Notes under the pieces: model-generated
The model's database searches: none
Told to the model about the DNA's origin: nothing
What the model saw: the letters and a program-made list of their open reading frames with translations, nothing else
Program-made: the position numbers and the translations under genes
Part shown: positions 4,407 to 23,641 of the stretch, in pieces
Numbering within the stretch: position 1 is the first letter of the stretch
Layout of the letters: each line of letters opens with the position of its first letter
Source: a virus
DNA: 23,641 nucleotides
IMG/VR virus record: IMGVR_UViG_3300025087_000298
Coordinates: 1 to 23,641 of that record
Direction: 5' to 3' (one strand)

Positions 4407-4859
4407 ATGTGGCAAACATTAATAGATAAATTAGTTTCAATTCTTGAAGCAAATACTCTGATAGGCGAAGTTTTTTCTTTTGAGGTGGAAGAGTTTAAGA
4501 ATGACCCCACTTGTACAGTCACTCCGTCAGAGAACAGTAGCGATTATAATACCACCGAAGAGAATGTCAGGATATATGCTTTTAACGTAAGATTGTTTGT
4601 CAATAGAACCGTACTTGTCTCGGGAAAAGACACCAAATACGAGGCTGACAGGAAGATGCGGAACTTGGTTGATTCAGTAATGGATGATTTCGATAAACAG
4701 TATTATCTTTCAGGGATAGTCAATCCAACTGGGTACACGTTCATCAATCTGTTCGCCACTCCGTCAATGTGGGGATACGCAGGAAGAGAATCGGAGTTCA
4801 GGTTTTGCGAGATTAAACTCCAATGTAGAGTTTCCGTGGATTTGAACGCAATCAGCTAA
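4407..4859 (+). CDS. tail terminator / tail completion protein
   Basis: A 150-residue alpha/beta protein. An N-terminal helix (MWQTLIDKLVSILEANTL) is followed by the strand VFSFEVEEFKNDPTCTVTPSE, then VRIYAFNVRLFVNRTV, a long helix (KYEADRKMRNLVDSVMDDFDK) and a C-terminal sheet ending CRVSVDLNAIS. This is the usual fold order of siphovirus tail terminators, which cap the finished tail tube and join it to the head. It lies after the gp10-like gene and before the major tail protein, as expected. The call rests on synteny and secondary-structure pattern. Confidence 0.65.
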   Translation: MWQTLIDKLVSILEANTLIGEVFSFEVEEFKNDPTCTVTPSENSSDYNTTEENVRIYAFNVRLFVNRTVLVSGKDTKYEADRKMRNLVDSVMDDFDKQYYLSGIVNPTGYTFINLFATPSMWGYAGRESEFRFCEIKLQCRVSVDLNAIS

Positions 4860-6587: not shown

Positions 6588-7448
6588 ATGACAGAAGAGC
6601 GAATAGTACTCAAAGTAGTTGACGGAAGAAACAACCAGTATGGAGTGTGTAAGAAATATCTGATGATATGTTTAGAGTGTAGAAGAGAGTTTTGGATTGC
6701 TGGTGGAGCTTATAATCAAGGAATAGGTTTGACTTGTGGGAATGTGTGTAAACATAAAAGACAAAGTAAAAGACTCAAAGGAAAACCTACTTGGATAAAA
6801 GGAAAAACGAAAGAAAACTTTCCCCAGTTAGCTGGTTATTGGAGTGGAAAAAGATTTAGCGATGAGCATAGAAAAAACTTATCAATTGTAAGTCAAGGTA
6901 GAATTGGTTATTGGAAAGACAAAAAACGTGACATTGAAACTATACACAAGCAATCTGCCACTCTCAGAGAAAGATATAGAAATGGCAGCGTAAAGCCAAG
7001 TAAAAGCACTTTCAAAAAAGGTCATGTTCCTGTAAATAAGGGCAAGAAAATGAGTATTGAGCATAGAATGTTGCTTAGTAAGATTCACACCGAAAGACCA
7101 AACAGATATTGGTTGGGGAAAGAAAGGTTGCACATGAAAGGAGATAGGCATTGGAACTGGGCAGGAGGCAAGTCGTTTGAGCCTTACAGTAAAGAGTTTA
7201 CTAAGTACGTCAAAAATCAAATAAGAAAAAGAGACAATTATACTTGTCGTAACTGTGGAAAGTCAGAAGAAACAGAGAAAGGAGAGAACCGTATCTCACT
7301 TACCATTCATCACGTCGATTACGACAAGAAGAATTGTTCAGATAGAAACCTCATAACTGTCTGTAGAAAATGTAACTTGTTGGCAAACAAAAATCGTGAT
7401 TTTTGGAAAAAGATATTCCAATCTAAAATCAGTAAAATTTATTCTTAA
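6588..7448 (+). CDS. free-standing HNH homing endonuclease with NUMOD-type repeats
   Basis: A 286-residue protein. An N-terminal zinc-binding part (CLECRREF...CGNVCKHK) is followed by several short DNA-binding modules of NUMOD3 character (SGKRFSDEHRKNLS; NKGKKMSIEHRMLLSK) and HWNWAGGKSFEPY. The C-terminal HNH domain is RDNYTCRNCG...LTIHHVDYDKKNCSDRNLITVC.KCN. Separates the major tail protein from the tail chaperones. It shares module order with the endonuclease at 4865, suggesting related but separate insertions. A perfect inverted repeat lies directly before its start. Function: selfish spread by cutting DNA of competing phages (family knowledge); its target is unknown. Confidence 0.88.
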   Translation: MTEERIVLKVVDGRNNQYGVCKKYLMICLECRREFWIAGGAYNQGIGLTCGNVCKHKRQSKRLKGKPTWIKGKTKENFPQLAGYWSGKRFSDEHRKNLSIVSQGRIGYWKDKKRDIETIHKQSATLRERYRNGSVKPSKSTFKKGHVPVNKGKKMSIEHRMLLSKIHTERPNRYWLGKERLHMKGDRHWNWAGGKSFEPYSKEFTKYVKNQIRKRDNYTCRNCGKSEETEKGENRISLTIHHVDYDKKNCSDRNLITVCRKCNLLANKNRDFWKKIFQSKISKIYS

Positions 7449-14885: not shown

Positions 14886-14929
14886 AAACCCCTAAAACCC
14901 CTTTACAAATCTATTCCACGTGCTATAAT
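14886..14929 (+). promoter_or_regulatory. sigma70-type promoter with upstream AAACCCCTAAAACCC box (copy 1)
   Basis: -35 TTTACA (14902-14907), 16-nt spacer, extended -10 TGC-TATAAT (14922-14929). The box AAACCCCTAAAACCCC (14886-14901) directly upstream is repeated before the promoter at 19756. It should drive the small-gene operon beginning at 14998. Confidence 0.75.
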
Positions 14930-14997
14930 ATAAATATAAAACATTTAACAACTAACAAACCTAACAAACCTAACTAACCAATCTAACAAACAATCCT
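14930..14997 (+). promoter_or_regulatory. G-free 5' leader with CTAAC repeats
   Basis: From just after the -10 to the ATG at 14998 the + strand contains no G at all. It includes repeats of AACAAACCTAAC/CTAACCAA. The transcript leader would be unstructured, which suits initiation without a Shine-Dalgarno sequence. CCTAAC words recur in other intergenic spots (about 16523, 21394). Confidence 0.5.
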
Positions 14998-16603: not shown

Positions 16604-17764
16604 ATGACCAAAACCAAAAAAACAAACATCTACGTGGAGAAAGGCCACAAAGACGTATTGGAGAAAGGCCACAAAGACGTATTGGAGAAAGCAGTGGACA
16701 ACAATCTGCCCGTGTTGTTAATTGGCGAAACGGGGACAGGAAAAACCAGTTTTGTTCGAGATTTAGCCGAAAGAAAGGGGATTGAGTTGTTTAGACTTAA
16801 TCTTACAGGCCAGACTGGGGTTGATGAGTTCCTTGGAAAGTGGCTCGCCTCTCCAGAGAAAGGAACGTATTGGCTTGATGGATTATTGATTCGAGCAATG
16901 AAAGAAGGCAAGTGGATTGTACTTGACGAAATCAACATGGCCTTGCCTGAGATACTTTCAGCACTCCATTCATTATTGGATGACGACAGGAAAATAGTAA
17001 TGAAAGAATTTGACGGAAGCGTGGTCAAACCACATGAAGATTTTAGATTATTCGCCACAATGAATCCTGATGACGAGTACGCCGGAACTAAGGAGTTAAA
17101 CAAAGCGTTCCTATCAAGATTTCCTGTGGTTATGAGAATTGGATACAGCGACAAAGAAGAGCTTATCGTTGAGCAACAGGGAAGCGTTGAAGAATCAGTA
17201 GCTCAATCTCTGGTTATGGTTGGCCATGAGATTCGGTCTGCTAAAAAGAAACAGCTTATCACTTATACCTGTTCAACTAGAGACCTTATTTATTGCGCTT
17301 CATTGATGTCTTTATCCATTCCTAAAGCATTGAGTTTCGAGATGTCCATATTAAATAAGGTTCCCAATGAAGAACGTGAAGCGGTACAGAAAATAATCGA
17401 ACTTGTTACTGGCGAGAAGATAAAGACTTCCGAAGGAAAAACATTCAAAAGCATCGAAGAGATGTTGAAAGACTACAGCAAGTTGGACAAAGAATTACAA
17501 ACAATGAAGAGTGATACAAGCGACTTGCGAGACGCTCTCAACCTCAAAGGACAGGAAGCCGACCAGCTCCAGAAAGAAACCATGTTGGCCAAAAAACTTG
17601 CCAACGAGTTATCTGTTCAGCTTAAAAAAGAACTTGAGTCTCATGCCGCCACCAAGGAGAAAGCTAAGAACCTAATCAAAACTTTTGAATCCTTGACCGA
17701 AGACATTCCAGAAGATGAAAAGAAAGAGACTATGGTGAAAGTAGAAAGCATAGTTAAAGAATAA
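16604..17764 (+). CDS. MoxR/CobS-like AAA+ ATPase with C-terminal coiled coil
   Basis: 386 residues. Walker A GETGTGKT at 41-48, Walker B WIVLDEIN at 104-111, sensor 1 FATMNP at 150-155, and the arginine-finger-like LSRF at 170-173: an AAA_5/MoxR-type ATPase. After about residue 275 the protein becomes a long charged coiled coil (ELQTMKSDTSDLRDALNLKG...QLQKETMLAKKLANELS). In the family such ATPases remodel partner complexes and work with VWA-domain proteins; the next gene, 3 bases on, encodes exactly such a protein. Oddity: residues 12-27 are an exact tandem duplication EKGHKDVL x2 (24-bp DNA repeat). Likely early or middle-expressed. Confidence 0.88.
   Translation: MTKTKKTNIYVEKGHKDVLEKGHKDVLEKAVDNNLPVLLIGETGTGKTSFVRDLAERKGIELFRLNLTGQTGVDEFLGKWLASPEKGTYWLDGLLIRAMKEGKWIVLDEINMALPEILSALHSLLDDDRKIVMKEFDGSVVKPHEDFRLFATMNPDDEYAGTKELNKAFLSRFPVVMRIGYSDKEELIVEQQGSVEESVAQSLVMVGHEIRSAKKKQLITYTCSTRDLIYCASLMSLSIPKALSFEMSILNKVPNEEREAVQKIIELVTGEKIKTSEGKTFKSIEEMLKDYSKLDKELQTMKSDTSDLRDALNLKGQEADQLQKETMLAKKLANELSVQLKKELESHAATKEKAKNLIKTFESLTEDIPEDEKKETMVKVESIVKE
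16637..16684 (+). repeat. exact 24-bp tandem repeat x2 in AAA+ gene
   Basis: The 24-bp unit at 16637-16660 is repeated exactly at 16661-16684 and partly again (GAGAAAG) at 16685. It keeps frame and adds eight residues (EKGHKDVL). The identical DNA shows a recent duplication. Confidence 0.9.
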
Positions 17765-17767
17765 ATT

Positions 17768-19717
17768 ATGTTACATCACAAGAAAGAACTAGAAATCTTA
17801 GCCAATGTTTTATCCGACAAAATCAATGTCAGGATAATTCCCAGCGATTGTTGGAAATGCGATACGTCAAAAATGGTTATTTATTATCCTTCCGAAAGTT
17901 GGCTTGTCAATGCGGATTTCGGGCTTATAATCCACGAAGCTTCTCATTTGAGATTCTCTACTTTTAACAAGGCCAATAACAAGGCCAAGTTCCTTGAACA
18001 CATCAAGAAGTTCAAGAAAGAGAGTGTTCCGTTAATCCAACTCCATAACGCATTTGAGGATTTGAGAGTCGACAGGCTTATAGGGATAGTATATCCAGGC
18101 GCAAAGATGTATCTTGAAGAATTGTATTACGAACAGTATCTGGATGTCTTCGAGAAATACAGGATGGCCAACAGCCTAAAGTGGTACAGCAGAGAAATCA
18201 GGGATAAACATTCTGATTATCTCGTGGATAACAGCTGGATAGGCTTTTGTTTCTACTGGTTGTTCTTTTTCGAGGTGTCAGAAACTCATGCCAATTCATT
18301 CCTGCAATTCTTTAATGAAGATTTGATTCGAGCCATAGACGACAGTTATGATTTTATAACCAAAGAGTTCCCTAAAGTTGAAAGTGATGATGACATTTTC
18401 CAATTCCTTAAAAAGGTTCTCAAATTTAAAAAGGTTCTCAAATTTTTCCTGCCATTGGTTGAAGACATTGAAAACGAAGAAGAGTATGAGAAGCCAGAAG
18501 ACAGGAGAACTGATAAGGACGGTAGCGGAAGCAAAAAATCCGATGAGGCTGGAGAATCTGATAAGCCAGGAGAAAAATCTAAAAGCGATGATAGCGAGAC
18601 TGGAGACAAAGGAGAAGTTGGCTTCACAAAAGAGAAACTTAAAAAAATCATCAGTGAGGTTGAAAAAGTTATAGACAAGTTTATCAGCAGTTCCGCGCCT
18701 GGTGATGCTGGAGAAAAAGAAGGAGCCGAGCCAGATGTTTCAGGAAAGATGTCAGATATAAGCAGCAGTTCAAAAAGCTCTTCCGAAAACCCTGTAAAAG
18801 AAATATCCAGAGACGTGTTGGCTGATATGATTGGAGAATCAAAAGATGATGAAGATAAAGAATCTAAACTATCGTCTAAATTGTCATCTAAGAGACTTGA
18901 CTTTAGCGATTTGAGAGATTTATTCAAACTCAGGGATTCCGATGGAACTTATCTCTTGCCAGAAGATTTGGCTCATGACGTTGAGATGAATCTAGCCAAA
19001 GTACGCAGTGCTATTTCAGTTCTTAAAGATAGCGAGACTAACCGTTACGCAGGCGGATACGATAGTGGAAAACTAGAGAACAGAAAACTATGGAAACTGA
19101 CCAGCGTAAAAAAGACTAAAGTCTTCAGCAGAAAGATAGTTGACAGCAATGATAACAAGGACATGGCTGTAGCCATACTGACTGACGTTAGTGGTAGTAT
19201 GCTAGGCTCAAAGATACAGCACGCTTGCAGGGCTACCGCATTACTTGCCAAGGCTTTAGAGATGGCGGGCAAACCAGTAGCGGTCTACAGTTTTAACGGT
19301 AAATTCACTAAACATAAGGAATGGACCAAAAAAATGGACTACAAACGCATGGTTGAAATAGAGAATATAGTTTTAAGCGGAGACGGCTGTAAGTTCAATA
19401 ATGATGGATACGCAGTAAAGATGACAGCCAAGGAGTTAGCCAAGCGTTCCGAAAAGAATAAGATTATGATAGTTCTTTCAGACGGCCACCCCGAAGAGAG
19501 CGATGAGCGTTCTCCCGAAGGAATCCCTTACAATGAATACAGTCTAAGAGATGAAGCATTGAAAGCCGAGAAAATAGCTAAAGTATATTCAGTAGGAATA
19601 CAAAACAGCAGCGTTGAGAGATACTATTCAAGACACGTAGTAATCCACAGCGTTAAAGAGCTTGCCCCTGTAATGACTAAGTTCTTTAAAGAGAATTCAG
19701 GCAAGCGAAGGAAATAG
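17768..19717 (+). CDS. VWA-domain protein with HExxH motif, CobT-like partner of the AAA+ ATPase
   Basis: 649 residues. The N-terminal metallopeptidase-like domain has HEASH at 56-60 and a later Glu in LHNAFEDLRVDRL (93-104), the HExxH...ED.R pattern of gluzincin-like proteins linked to CobT/VWA families. An acidic, Ser/Glu/Lys low-complexity linker spans about 235-385. The C-terminal VWA domain has MIDAS DVSGSM at about 473-478, followed by helix and strand IMIVLSDGHPEE with the second MIDAS region. CobS/CobT-like pairs act as ATP-driven chaperones or chelatases; here no cobalamin genes are visible. It carries an 18-bp tandem repeat. Target unknown. Confidence 0.85.
   Translation: MLHHKKELEILANVLSDKINVRIIPSDCWKCDTSKMVIYYPSESWLVNADFGLIIHEASHLRFSTFNKANNKAKFLEHIKKFKKESVPLIQLHNAFEDLRVDRLIGIVYPGAKMYLEELYYEQYLDVFEKYRMANSLKWYSREIRDKHSDYLVDNSWIGFCFYWLFFFEVSETHANSFLQFFNEDLIRAIDDSYDFITKEFPKVESDDDIFQFLKKVLKFKKVLKFFLPLVEDIENEEEYEKPEDRRTDKDGSGSKKSDEAGESDKPGEKSKSDDSETGDKGEVGFTKEKLKKIISEVEKVIDKFISSSAPGDAGEKEGAEPDVSGKMSDISSSSKSSSENPVKEISRDVLADMIGESKDDEDKESKLSSKLSSKRLDFSDLRDLFKLRDSDGTYLLPEDLAHDVEMNLAKVRSAISVLKDSETNRYAGGYDSGKLENRKLWKLTSVKKTKVFSRKIVDSNDNKDMAVAILTDVSGSMLGSKIQHACRATALLAKALEMAGKPVAVYSFNGKFTKHKEWTKKMDYKRMVEIENIVLSGDGCKFNNDGYAVKMTAKELAKRSEKNKIMIVLSDGHPEESDERSPEGIPYNEYSLRDEALKAEKIAKVYSVGIQNSSVERYYSRHVVIHSVKELAPVMTKFFKENSGKRRK
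18408..18443 (+). repeat. exact 18-bp tandem repeat x2 in VWA gene
   Basis: The 18-bp unit at 18408-18425 is repeated at 18426-18443, in frame, giving LKKVLKFKKVLKF. It lies just before the acidic linker. Like the repeat in the ATPase gene it is an unmutated recent duplication. Confidence 0.85.
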
Positions 19718-21453: not shown

Positions 21454-21729
21454 ATGAAAATCTCAATCAAAAACCAGTATTCAGACGAGGTGTTATTAGA
21501 GGGCGAAGCGGAAAATTTAAAAGAATTTATTAAAATTAACAAAGCCAACCTGAGCGGAGCCGACCTGAGCGGAGCCGACCTGAGCGGAGCCGACCTGAGC
21601 GGAGCCAACCTGTGCGGAGCCGACCTGTGCGAAGCCGACCTGTGCGGAGCCAACCTGTGCGGAGCCAAAATTAAAATTTCGCAAAAAGAAGAACTGATAA
21701 AAGCCTTGGGTATTATAATCGAGGAGTAA
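21454..21729 (+). CDS. pentapeptide-repeat protein
   Basis: 91 residues. The N-terminal cap [29 protein letters not shown] is followed by eight perfect A(D/N)L(S/C)(G/E) pentapeptides at residues 31-70, then a lysine-rich helix. Pentapeptide repeats fold into a four-sided beta helix; eight repeats make two coils. Some family members mimic DNA and protect or inhibit gyrase, and small phage ones are common with unknown role. The repeat DNA (21544-21663) is GC-rich and nearly identical between units, so it was recently expanded by slippage. Confidence 0.88.
21544..21663 (+). repeat. 15-bp tandem repeats x8 in pentapeptide gene
   Basis: Eight consecutive 15-bp units of the form GCC-(G/A)AC-CTG-(A/T)GC-G(G/A)A. 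The first four read CTG-AGC (Leu-Ser), the last four CTG-TGC (Leu-Cys). Codon use is uniform and GC-rich compared with neighbouring genes, consistent with recent expansion in two rounds. Confidence 0.9.
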
Positions 21730-21756
21730 GAATTTAACTAACTAATATAAAAAAGT

Positions 21757-21945
21757 ATGGTCACAATGCAGTATGTTCTTCCGACAGCGGAGCAGTTAGA
21801 GATGATGCAGAAGTTCCGTGATTTGTATCAGGCCTTGTATCAAGAAGTAAATCAATTGGAGAAAAGTAGGGGCTTGTCTCTTGCTTTAACCAACTTAGAG
21901 CAAAGTGCGATGTGGTTGAATAAATCCATCACAAAAAACGATTAA
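21757..21945 (+). CDS. candidate Acb2/Tad1-type cyclic-nucleotide sponge (anti-CBASS/anti-Thoeris)
   Basis: 62 residues (59 if the ATG at 21766 is used). Two helices: EQLEMMQKFRDLYQALYQEVNQLEK, then SR-GLSLALTNLEQSAMWLNKSI (residues 37-58). The phrase 'SRelSLALTkLEea.MWankAI' is what I recall as the signature of the helical hairpin shared by Acb2 and Tad1 phage proteins, which bind cyclic di- or trinucleotide signals of CBASS and gcADPR-type signals of Thoeris. The place beside other small accessory genes fits a counter-defence role. The match is from memory of the family, not from alignment, and binding residues are not verified. Confidence 0.7.
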   Translation: MVTMQYVLPTAEQLEMMQKFRDLYQALYQEVNQLEKSRGLSLALTNLEQSAMWLNKSITKND

Positions 21946-21995
21946 AATCCAACCCTGTTTGGCGGAGCAGGCCAAAACCGCCTGACTATAAATTT

Positions 21996-22292
21996 ATGCT
22001 AAGAAAACAATGCAGTGAAATTAAATATTGTACGGAGTGTGGACTTGAATTAGAAGATTTTTTTACTGGAAGATTCGATTCTGCGACTGGCGAAAAATTA
22101 AAAAGAAAAGATTGCTTGAATGAAAAGTGTGAAAGGGGGTGCAGACGGATTGGCCATCAATATAATTTTTGGGGGTTCGGTTCTACGTGTAGAAGATGTG
22201 GTTATGTTATGGAGAGTCATTCTTCGCCTCCTCTCCCCCCTACTCGCAAGAGTTGGGAAATTCGTTCAGACACTCCCACCTTCATGTCATAA
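21996..22292 (+). CDS. double zinc-ribbon protein
   Basis: 98 residues. First ribbon: YCTECGLELEDFFTGRFD...KDCLNEKC. Second: GHQYNFWGFGSTCRRCGYVMES, similar to the 'HdW....g..CtrCGy' element of small phage proteins. The last ~28 residues (SPPLPPTRKSWEIRSDTPTFMS) are of different character and overlap the 5' strand of a long RNA helix (22228-22239), so the reading frame there may be incidental. Likely a nucleic-acid or protein-binding phage protein; function unknown. Confidence 0.65.
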   Translation: MLRKQCSEIKYCTECGLELEDFFTGRFDSATGEKLKRKDCLNEKCERGCRRIGHQYNFWGFGSTCRRCGYVMESHSSPPLPPTRKSWEIRSDTPTFMS

Positions 22293-22474
22293 ACCTGGAG
22301 GTTGGGGGAGAGGAGATTAACTCGATTCCTCAACACGGCGGTGTGGCAACATAGCAGTTGCGTCCGCCACAGTGGACGGCTTGCGCAAGCCTGAAAGGTG
22401 ACTCTACTCTACGGGACTGGCTACTACCAGCGGACAGTAATGTCCAGACAATTCCTTTCACCGCCGTGTTGAGG
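22228..22474 (+). ncRNA. large multi-helix structured RNA element
   Basis: Two long perfect helices follow each other. Helix A: CTCCTCTCCCCC (22228-22239) with GGGGGAGAGGAG (22304-22315), enclosing a GCAA-tetraloop hairpin ACTC/GAGT. Helix B: 16 bp, 22328-22343 with 22459-22474. It encloses GCAAC/GTTGC (22346-22361), CGTCC/GGACG (22361-22378), GGCTT/AAGCC (22378-22391), CTGG/CCAG (22417-22430) and GGACA/TGTCC with a GUAA tetraloop (22432-22445). It is far more GC-rich than its surroundings, and most of it is non-coding. No known RNA class is recognised. A phage ncRNA, ribozyme-like element or large regulatory leader of the gene at 22514 are possible. Confidence 0.75.
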
Positions 22475-22513
22475 TGTTAAGTAATATTAAAACCATAAGA
22501 ATTAAAAAATCCT

Positions 22514-22888
22514 ATGTCAAAATTCAAAGCGGGAATGATTATTGAGAACGCTGACGGTGAGCGTAAGATACTCGGCCAGTGCGGTGAGGTGTTCTTTATT
22601 AGCGAGGAAGATGATTTTGAAACAGCAGTATCCGAGATATACACAGAGAAAGAATTGCGGAACGCTGGCTTCGAACCAATCGAAGAGCCGTGGAAACCTG
22701 AAATTGATAATCTTTACGCTTATATTGGCAGTTTGGGTGATGTCGGTAAAACTTATTGGAGTAATTCAGAGGGTGACAAATATCATCTCTCCATTGGCAA
22801 TGTATTTCCACCCGAAAATAACGAAGAACTCATCGCCGAGTACAAGCGCAAATTACAGGAGATGTTTAAGCCAGAGGCTTACAAGTAA
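22514..22888 (+). CDS. phage protein of unknown function, 124 aa (possible N-terminal half)
   Basis: Start context ATCCT-ATG as at 14998 and 20167. N-terminal beta domain (SKFKAGMIIENADGERKILGQCGEVFFISEEDD) followed by the recurrent phage module EEPWKPEIDNLYAYIGSLGDVGKTYW ... LSIGNVFPPENNEELIAEYKRKL. The module 'W.P..g..Y..i...G.v....W.......r...GN.F' occurs in many phage hypothetical proteins, often as a small accessory domain. Stops at TAA 22886-22888; a good coding frame continues in the +1 frame, so the protein may once have been longer. Confidence 0.7.
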   Translation: MSKFKAGMIIENADGERKILGQCGEVFFISEEDDFETAVSEIYTEKELRNAGFEPIEEPWKPEIDNLYAYIGSLGDVGKTYWSNSEGDKYHLSIGNVFPPENNEELIAEYKRKLQEMFKPEAYK

Positions 22889-23186
22889 GAAACTAGAAGA
22901 ATCAGAAGAGCTGGGTTCGGAGAATATTAAAGACTTTGAAAGACTCGAAGTTGATTGGTGCGTTTATTATTATGAGGCTGGAGATTACGAGGGTTCCGGT
23001 TTCGGGCTTTGGAAGAAAGACGGTAAGTTAGGGTATTCGGATTTCAGTCATTGTTCGTGTTATGGCCCCACGGAAAATCTGAGTACTCTGTATTTTGACA
23101 GCATTGAAGATATAAAAAAATTCTGCAATGAGTATAACTTCGGACAAGAAGTTGTTGACTATGCCATTAAAAACGGACTTGTATGA
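22887..23186 (+). CDS. C-terminal domain in shifted frame (CSCYGP motif), no standard start
   Basis: From AAG 22887 the frame is open to TGA 23184-23186. The content is clearly protein-like: DWCVYYYEAGDYEGSGFGLWKKDGKLGYSDFSHCSCYGPTEN, then STLYFDSIEDIKKFCNEYNF. 'YEGSGF...HCSCYGP' is a motif I associate with a small uncharacterised phage/bacterial family. No ATG, GTG or TTG lies between 22869 and the motif, so it needs a non-standard start (CTG 22911, ATT 22926), a +1 shift from the gene at 22514, or it is a broken gene. Its end overlaps the next start by ATGA. Confidence 0.6.
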   Translation, partial: KKLEESEELGSENIKDFERLEVDWCVYYYEAGDYEGSGFGLWKKDGKLGYSDFSHCSCYGPTENLSTLYFDSIEDIKKFCNEYNFGQEVVDYAIKNGLV

Positions 23187-23440
23187 AAATAATAAACCAA
23201 AATCTTGGCGAAAAACTGCTTAATACGATTAGGACTTACCATAGTCATTGCTATAGAGCTATAAAGACATTGCCTAACGGTAATATCACCACCGAATATG
23301 TGGAAGGTGATTTAATGGTATGCAAAGCTCTCCGAGAAGAAATTGGATTATTGGAAGAAGAAATAAGCAGACGAAATAAAAAACTTTTAAATAAAAAAAC
23401 AAAAAACCTAAATGAAACCCAAATGCAAAAACTGCTATGA
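23183..23440 (+). CDS. 85-aa helical protein, unknown function
   Basis: Coupled by ATGA to the domain before. An N-terminal helix (QNLGEKLLNTIRTYHSHCYRAI), a beta hairpin (LPNGNITTEYVEGDL) and a long C-terminal charged helix (CKALREEIGLLEEEISRRNKKLLNKKTKN). Possibly a coiled-coil protein. No family is recognised. Overlaps the next gene by 29 bases. Confidence 0.6.
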   Translation: MKIINQNLGEKLLNTIRTYHSHCYRAIKTLPNGNITTEYVEGDLMVCKALREEIGLLEEEISRRNKKLLNKKTKNLNETQMQKLL

Positions 23441-23603
23441 TAAAGGTTTCGCCAGCGTTTATGAAGCTGGCAGTTATGCCATGCCTGATTTTTACGGCGA
23501 TAAAAAATACCGAGTCCAAAAAGTGGGAATAAGAATTAAATACTGTACTTGCCTAAAAGGCAAACGCATGAAAGCTTATGACAAACAAATTAAAAAAAGA
23601 TAA
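23412..23603 (+). CDS. small zinc-finger-like protein, 63 aa
   Basis: MKPKCKNCYDKGFASVYEAGSYAMPDFYGD...YCTCLKGKRMKAY: a CxxC pair at residues 5-8 and a CxC pair near residues 45-47 form a likely zinc site around a short hairpin. The C-terminus is basic. Proteins of the type 'C.nC..KG.a......C.C' are common small phage proteins of unknown function. Confidence 0.65.
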   Translation: MKPKCKNCYDKGFASVYEAGSYAMPDFYGDKKYRVQKVGIRIKYCTCLKGKRMKAYDKQIKKR

Positions 23604-23641
23604 ATTCCTAAAAGCATGGCGATATCTTGAAAGTCTTAAAT
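23578..23641 (+). CDS. start of a further gene (partial, runs off right edge)
   Basis: An ATG at 23578, overlapping the preceding gene by 26 bases, opens a frame that stays open to the end of the window: MTNKLKKDKFLKAWRYLESLK. The residues look natural (helical, basic), but only 21 are present, so the identity cannot be judged. Confidence 0.4.
   Translation, partial: MTNKLKKDKFLKAWRYLESLK

Follow-up and report, generated by a model that had tools for sequence, protein, structure and literature searches.

Hairpins processed by the double-strand-specific RNase III lie between phage early genes in T7-type early mRNA, and antisense small RNAs encoded by phages exist. ROOL and GOLLD are ornate RNAs of phages and prophages whose function is unknown; they are often found near tRNA islands, and GOLLD is often longer than 800 nt (PMC12286853). 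The element described here lies in a 23,641-nt stretch of viral DNA (IMG/VR record IMGVR_UViG_3300025087_000298, positions 1 to 23,641; the window) and would, like ROOL and GOLLD, be a structured non-coding RNA in a phage genome. Unlike these, it is only about 250 nt long and matches no Rfam family, and 22 kb separate it from the tRNA of the window. It shares with the T7-type RNase III hairpins the presence of long helices between co-directional phage genes, but is made up of two multi-branched domains, and its mRNA-strand pairing is not kept in a homologue. The proposed leftward transcript inside a rightward gene block is reminiscent of phage antisense small RNAs, although the element is far more structured than typical cis-antisense RNAs and has no established target. 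The element has a real structure and a narrow distribution and falls in no known family; it is a candidate for a new RNA family whose kind is familiar, not for a new kind of system.

Helices, folding and known RNA families

The element is a real, strongly folded stretch of about 250 nt between two phage genes. The preliminary description reported perfect 12- and 16-bp helices standing end to end with small hairpins, and these are present exactly where it placed them: a 12-bp perfect inverted repeat (helix A, 22228–22239/22304–22315) is followed by one of 16 bp (helix B, 22328–22343/22459–22474), with the smaller hairpins enclosed by the two. Of all perfect inverted repeats in the 23.6-kb window whose arms are separated by no more than 150 nt, helix B is the longest and helix A the joint second-longest. 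A 16-bp repeat was found in none of 300 dinucleotide shuffles of the whole window and in none of 5000 shuffles of the local 500 nt, while a 12-bp repeat occurred somewhere in 80 of the 300 whole-window shuffles as against 13 of the 5000 local ones. Two adjacent perfect helices are far beyond chance, and their perfection argues for maintenance or a recent origin.

The 276-nt region folds to −117.8 kcal/mol on the + strand (z = −7.5, with 0 of 200 shuffles as low) and to −112.8 kcal/mol on the − strand (z = −5.8); both domains are also significant by themselves on either strand, with z-scores of −4.7 (+) and −3.6 (−) for domain A and −5.2 on either strand for domain B. The element does not rank first in a sliding 150-nt folding scan because the 50-nt steps cut the 147 nt spanned by helix B; the full-length z-scores stand. 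Its G+C content is about 0.50, compared with 0.32–0.48 in the flanks. The shuffles support the proposal of selection for RNA structure, as, more weakly, does one homologue.

All parts of the element are annotated on the − strand. Domain A (22228–22315), in which the 12-bp perfect helix closes three small hairpins, is drawn as the 3′ domain of a leftward RNA, and domain B (22328–22474) comprises the 16-bp perfect helix closing a multi-helix junction. The inner helix of domain B (22393–22398/22454–22459, GAAAGG/CCTTTC on the + strand; the part spans 22393–22459) encloses hairpins at 22432–22445 and 22416–22431 and a short helix at 22403–22405/22446–22448, and three further hairpins occupy 22378–22391, 22362–22377 and 22346–22361 (part 22346–22391). 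The linker between the domains (22316–22327, ATTAACTCGATT on the + strand) is identical in the aligned homologue. By pattern match, a competing hairpin (GAGGAR...TTCCTC, 22310–22331) can form from the linker together with its flanks in both phages and would exclude both closing helices; its presence in both makes a switch between folds conceivable.

The preliminary description had assigned the RNA to no recognised class. Consistent with this, an Infernal scan against all families of Rfam 15 at curated thresholds gave no match to the element, the sole match in the window being the tRNA (358–429), and the homologue gave no match at the curated threshold either. A permissive scan of 21950–22600 returned nothing except models of eukaryotic lncRNAs and miRNAs and a single weak Flavo-1 match, all far below threshold. 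Membership of the ROOL/GOLLD family was rejected on the lack of a match to the family model and on size, an integron attC site on core letters that do not fit by eye, and a retron because no open frame in the relative's 10-kb locus was recognised as a reverse transcriptase. A search for a GC-rich stem followed by a T run revealed no intrinsic (rho-independent) terminator on either strand of 21900–23000.

The homologous copy and its neighbourhood

A scan of phage, plasmid, viral and species-genome collections for homologous loci, a search that the preliminary description had called for, identified one, in a syntenic place in two IMG/VR contigs (3300025087_000044, 99 kb, and 3300025117_000129, 42 kb) that are identical in the stretch compared. 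BLASTN of the element against annotated phages and plasmids gave one match only: an AT-rich stretch of 34 nt lying outside the helices, shared with a 635-kb phage. In pattern scans of the viral collection, the hairpin core had no matches and the linker matched the known relative only; the conserved 17-nt stretch returned 56 stretches, which were scored with a two-sequence profile, and beyond the pattern itself only the window and the known relative match. A hit to the core with wildcards (L014) was a chance match, and three hits to the leader pattern (L023–L025) are coding sequence of unrelated phages. No further relatives were reached through proteins, the VWA protein yielding none and a 63-aa protein leading back to the same contig, and the species genomes gave none via concatenated neighbour proteins or via the linker.

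The relative's copy is best read as a truncated, decaying remnant, possibly with reduced function. It starts inside domain A (window 22275), so the 5′ arm of helix A is missing and only the 22275–22315 side of the domain is kept. Domain B lacks 53 nt, comprising half of one helix B arm, two hairpins and most of a third (22378–22391, 22362–22377 and 22346–22361 are deleted except for the last bases of the first). The homologue folds no better than shuffles on either strand (z 0.0 to −1.1) and its minimum-energy fold is not the window structure, which gives only −10.9 kcal/mol when imposed on its − strand.

All recognised neighbouring genes are oriented rightward, and a + strand open frame (21996–22292) extends 65 nt into helix A. 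Downstream, the gene at 22514 has 74% protein identity with the relative's orthologue and 23207–23641 has about 80% DNA identity; in the relative, the element is separated from the orthologous downstream gene by a partial gene copy and two small genes. The upstream genes differ between the two phages, with short intergenic homology islands at 21735–21759, 21937–21998 and 22275–22475 between unrelated genes of both. Islands shared amid differing genes place the element at a boundary in a block of gene swapping. The putative counter-defence gene of the preliminary description is a real Acb2/Tad1 hairpin-domain gene (21757–21945; 62-aa product, Pfam PF24729, E = 4.8e-13), a candidate cyclic-nucleotide sponge, but its link to the element is not supported, as adjacency is not conserved and different genes occupy the place in the relative.

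Several other features of the locus and window were observed. The intergenic island at 21937–21998 has 89% identity with the relative between genes that differ on either side, and contains a possible H-type pseudoknot just before a start codon, CCTG(TTT)GGCGG-AG-CAGG-CCAAAA-CCGCC, possibly a leader for translational control. In the pentapeptide-repeat gene (21454–21729), 125 nt are about 84% identical to Salmonella phage genes (e.g. ST104, ST64T); the gene is repetitive, so convergence is possible. An AAA (CbbQ/CobS-like) ATPase gene adjoins a VWA (CobT-like) gene at 16604–19717, in a phage. A promoter-like block, TTTACA ... TGCTATAAT, is present once in the window (14886–14948) and about four times in the 99-kb relative (G001, near 41955, 47675, 51188 and 58463), perhaps marking early promoters. 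Positions 1–746 are largely non-coding, with a tRNA-Phe at 357–430; positions 1–362 are 95% identical to the relative, on its opposite strand, and in the relative, close to the place that corresponds to 1–746, a tRNA with a TTA (stop) anticodon is reported by ARAGORN. In the relative's locus (L002), positions 4749–4820 hold a partial copy of the start of the 22514-type gene and, after it, 30 nt that resemble the T-arm and acceptor of a tRNA and are identical to G001 17432–17461, and a 19-bp inverted repeat (89% complementary) lies at 6833–6911 in a gap between listed open frames.

Strand of the element

Since either strand of a perfect inverted repeat can fold, the evidence from a single sequence supports structure without choosing a strand. 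The changes in the element from window to relative, read on the + strand, are 15 G to A and 6 T to C, along with 1 A to G and 2 C to T; the first two kinds leave wobble pairs on the − strand and broken pairs on the + strand. When read on the − strand, 35 of the 36 comparable pairs (those with both partners present) stay standard in the homologue. The + strand reading implied by the preliminary description fares poorly, with 23 of 34 comparable pairs staying standard and 11 broken, against a single broken pair on the − strand. Its supporting tetraloops, GCAA and GUAA, are of the GNRA type on the + strand only, and the second reads ACAA in the homologue. Two double compensatory changes are observed, A-U to C-G in the inner helix of domain B (22394/22458) and C-G to U-A at 22404/22447 (both given as + bases); the other changes among the kept − strand pairs are G-U wobbles. 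Change of pairs without compensation, which the preliminary description held would refute its proposal, applies to most changed + strand pairs, whereas the two double changes are compensatory on either strand.

With random placement and unbiased mutation, 35 kept − strand pairs have p = 0.0019, and the 23 kept on the + strand fall below the 27.5 expected. With the observed spectrum held fixed, p is 0.12 for the 35 kept pairs and 0.07 for the two double changes, which means that most of the asymmetry could come from mutation with a strand bias. Of 15 transitions at paired positions, a count that includes four positions lacking their partner in the relative, 14 are wobble-keeping on the − strand and the fifteenth is compensated, compared with 47 of 80 in the homologous flanks (Fisher p = 0.009); among unpaired positions the share, 7 of 9, is no different from that in the flanks (p = 0.47). 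For the window copy, the + strand gives a slightly better fold than the − strand.

A candidate leftward promoter (22492–22520, TTGACA-17 nt-TATGGT, 10 of 12 matches) ends 18 nt before the first paired base on the − strand, the position that a leftward RNA would require; 1.7 such sites are expected by chance in the 1.1 kb scanned. The match is absent at the corresponding place in the homologue, and its TTGACA shares bases with the next gene's conserved start (ATGTCAA). The covariation data, two double changes and 35 of 36 kept pairs in one pair of sequences, are suggestive only of the − rather than the + strand as the working strand.

Alternative explanations and significance

We tentatively favor a lineage-restricted structured phage RNA with two compact domains, most likely transcribed leftward from the promoter-like site, at a gene-exchange boundary. 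The helices, their improbability, the lack of an Rfam match, one homologue and the pattern of substitutions are observed; from these we infer that this uncultivated tailed phage would make an RNA of about 260–270 nt, comprising domains A and B, most likely from the − strand and antisense to the surrounding rightward genes, with the promoter-like site (22520–22492) predicted to start it at around 22485. The folded domains and the single-stranded conserved linker would probably act by protein binding or by pairing with a target, and the element sits where related phages exchange genes. Against this reading stand the single homologue, the different fold and shuffle-like stability of that copy, the slightly better + strand fold of the window copy, a promoter match that is not conserved, the lack of a terminator on either strand of 21900–23000 and the rightward orientation of all recognised neighbouring genes. 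A more ambitious proposal, which we consider improbable, is a new class of compact two-domain phage RNA, antisense to an early operon beside anti-defence genes, acting in trans as a protein-binding regulator, decoy or ribozyme, with the linker switching between the two-domain fold and the small hairpin.

The main rival, somewhat unlikely in our view, is an intercistronic structure in a rightward early mRNA, i.e. an RNase III processing or stability site between the zinc-ribbon gene (21996–22292) and the gene at 22514 that separates upstream from downstream messages. The element lies between rightward genes, hence within any rightward transcript; the + strand has the lower folding energy (−117.8 kcal/mol, z = −7.5) and the GNRA loops, and RNase III is known to act on long helices between phage genes. 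However, 11 of 34 + strand pairs are broken in the homologue, fewer are kept (23) than expected under unbiased mutation (27.5), one GNRA loop is lost, and the at least five small hairpins exceed the needs of a processing site.

Third, and with rather little probability, the element may work as DNA, as a non-autonomous mobile remnant or a recombination or replication site that forms a cruciform, the repeats serving as DNA ends or boundaries at a gene-exchange hot spot. The perfect inverted repeats, the homology islands between unrelated genes and the truncation of the relative's copy in both domains are in accord with this. Against a transposon end or MITE, a second copy was found neither in the window nor in the two relatives (99 kb and 42 kb) nor elsewhere in the (incomplete) collections. 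Inspection by eye showed no target-site duplication and no direct repeats beside either unit, there being no empty site for comparison, and an inner structure with double changes exceeds what terminal repeats require. It is very unlikely that the element is a chance-assembled or decaying repeat of no present function whose strand asymmetry reflects mutation bias: only two lineages carry it, one copy is broken and the spectrum-conditioned permutation is not significant, but the improbability and perfection of the two adjacent helices argue otherwise. Least probable is a very divergent known class missed by covariance models (for example a guide of the omega RNA/HEARO type, a self-cleaving ribozyme or a GOLLD/ROOL-type RNA), since its fit in size and multi-branched junction to several classes, and the window's open frames that we take to resemble HNH endonucleases, are set against Rfam matches that all fall below the gathering score and against the lack of recognised IscB, TnpB or reverse transcriptase genes adjoining the element.

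Returning to the lineage-restricted RNA that we favor, many structured RNAs of phages fall outside every family model. Because this element has clear limits, a strong fold and one relative, cheap tests of its strand and structure are possible. A perfect inverted repeat from one sequence leaves the strand open, and the wobble-compatible substitutions of even one homologue can shift the judgement of which strand works.
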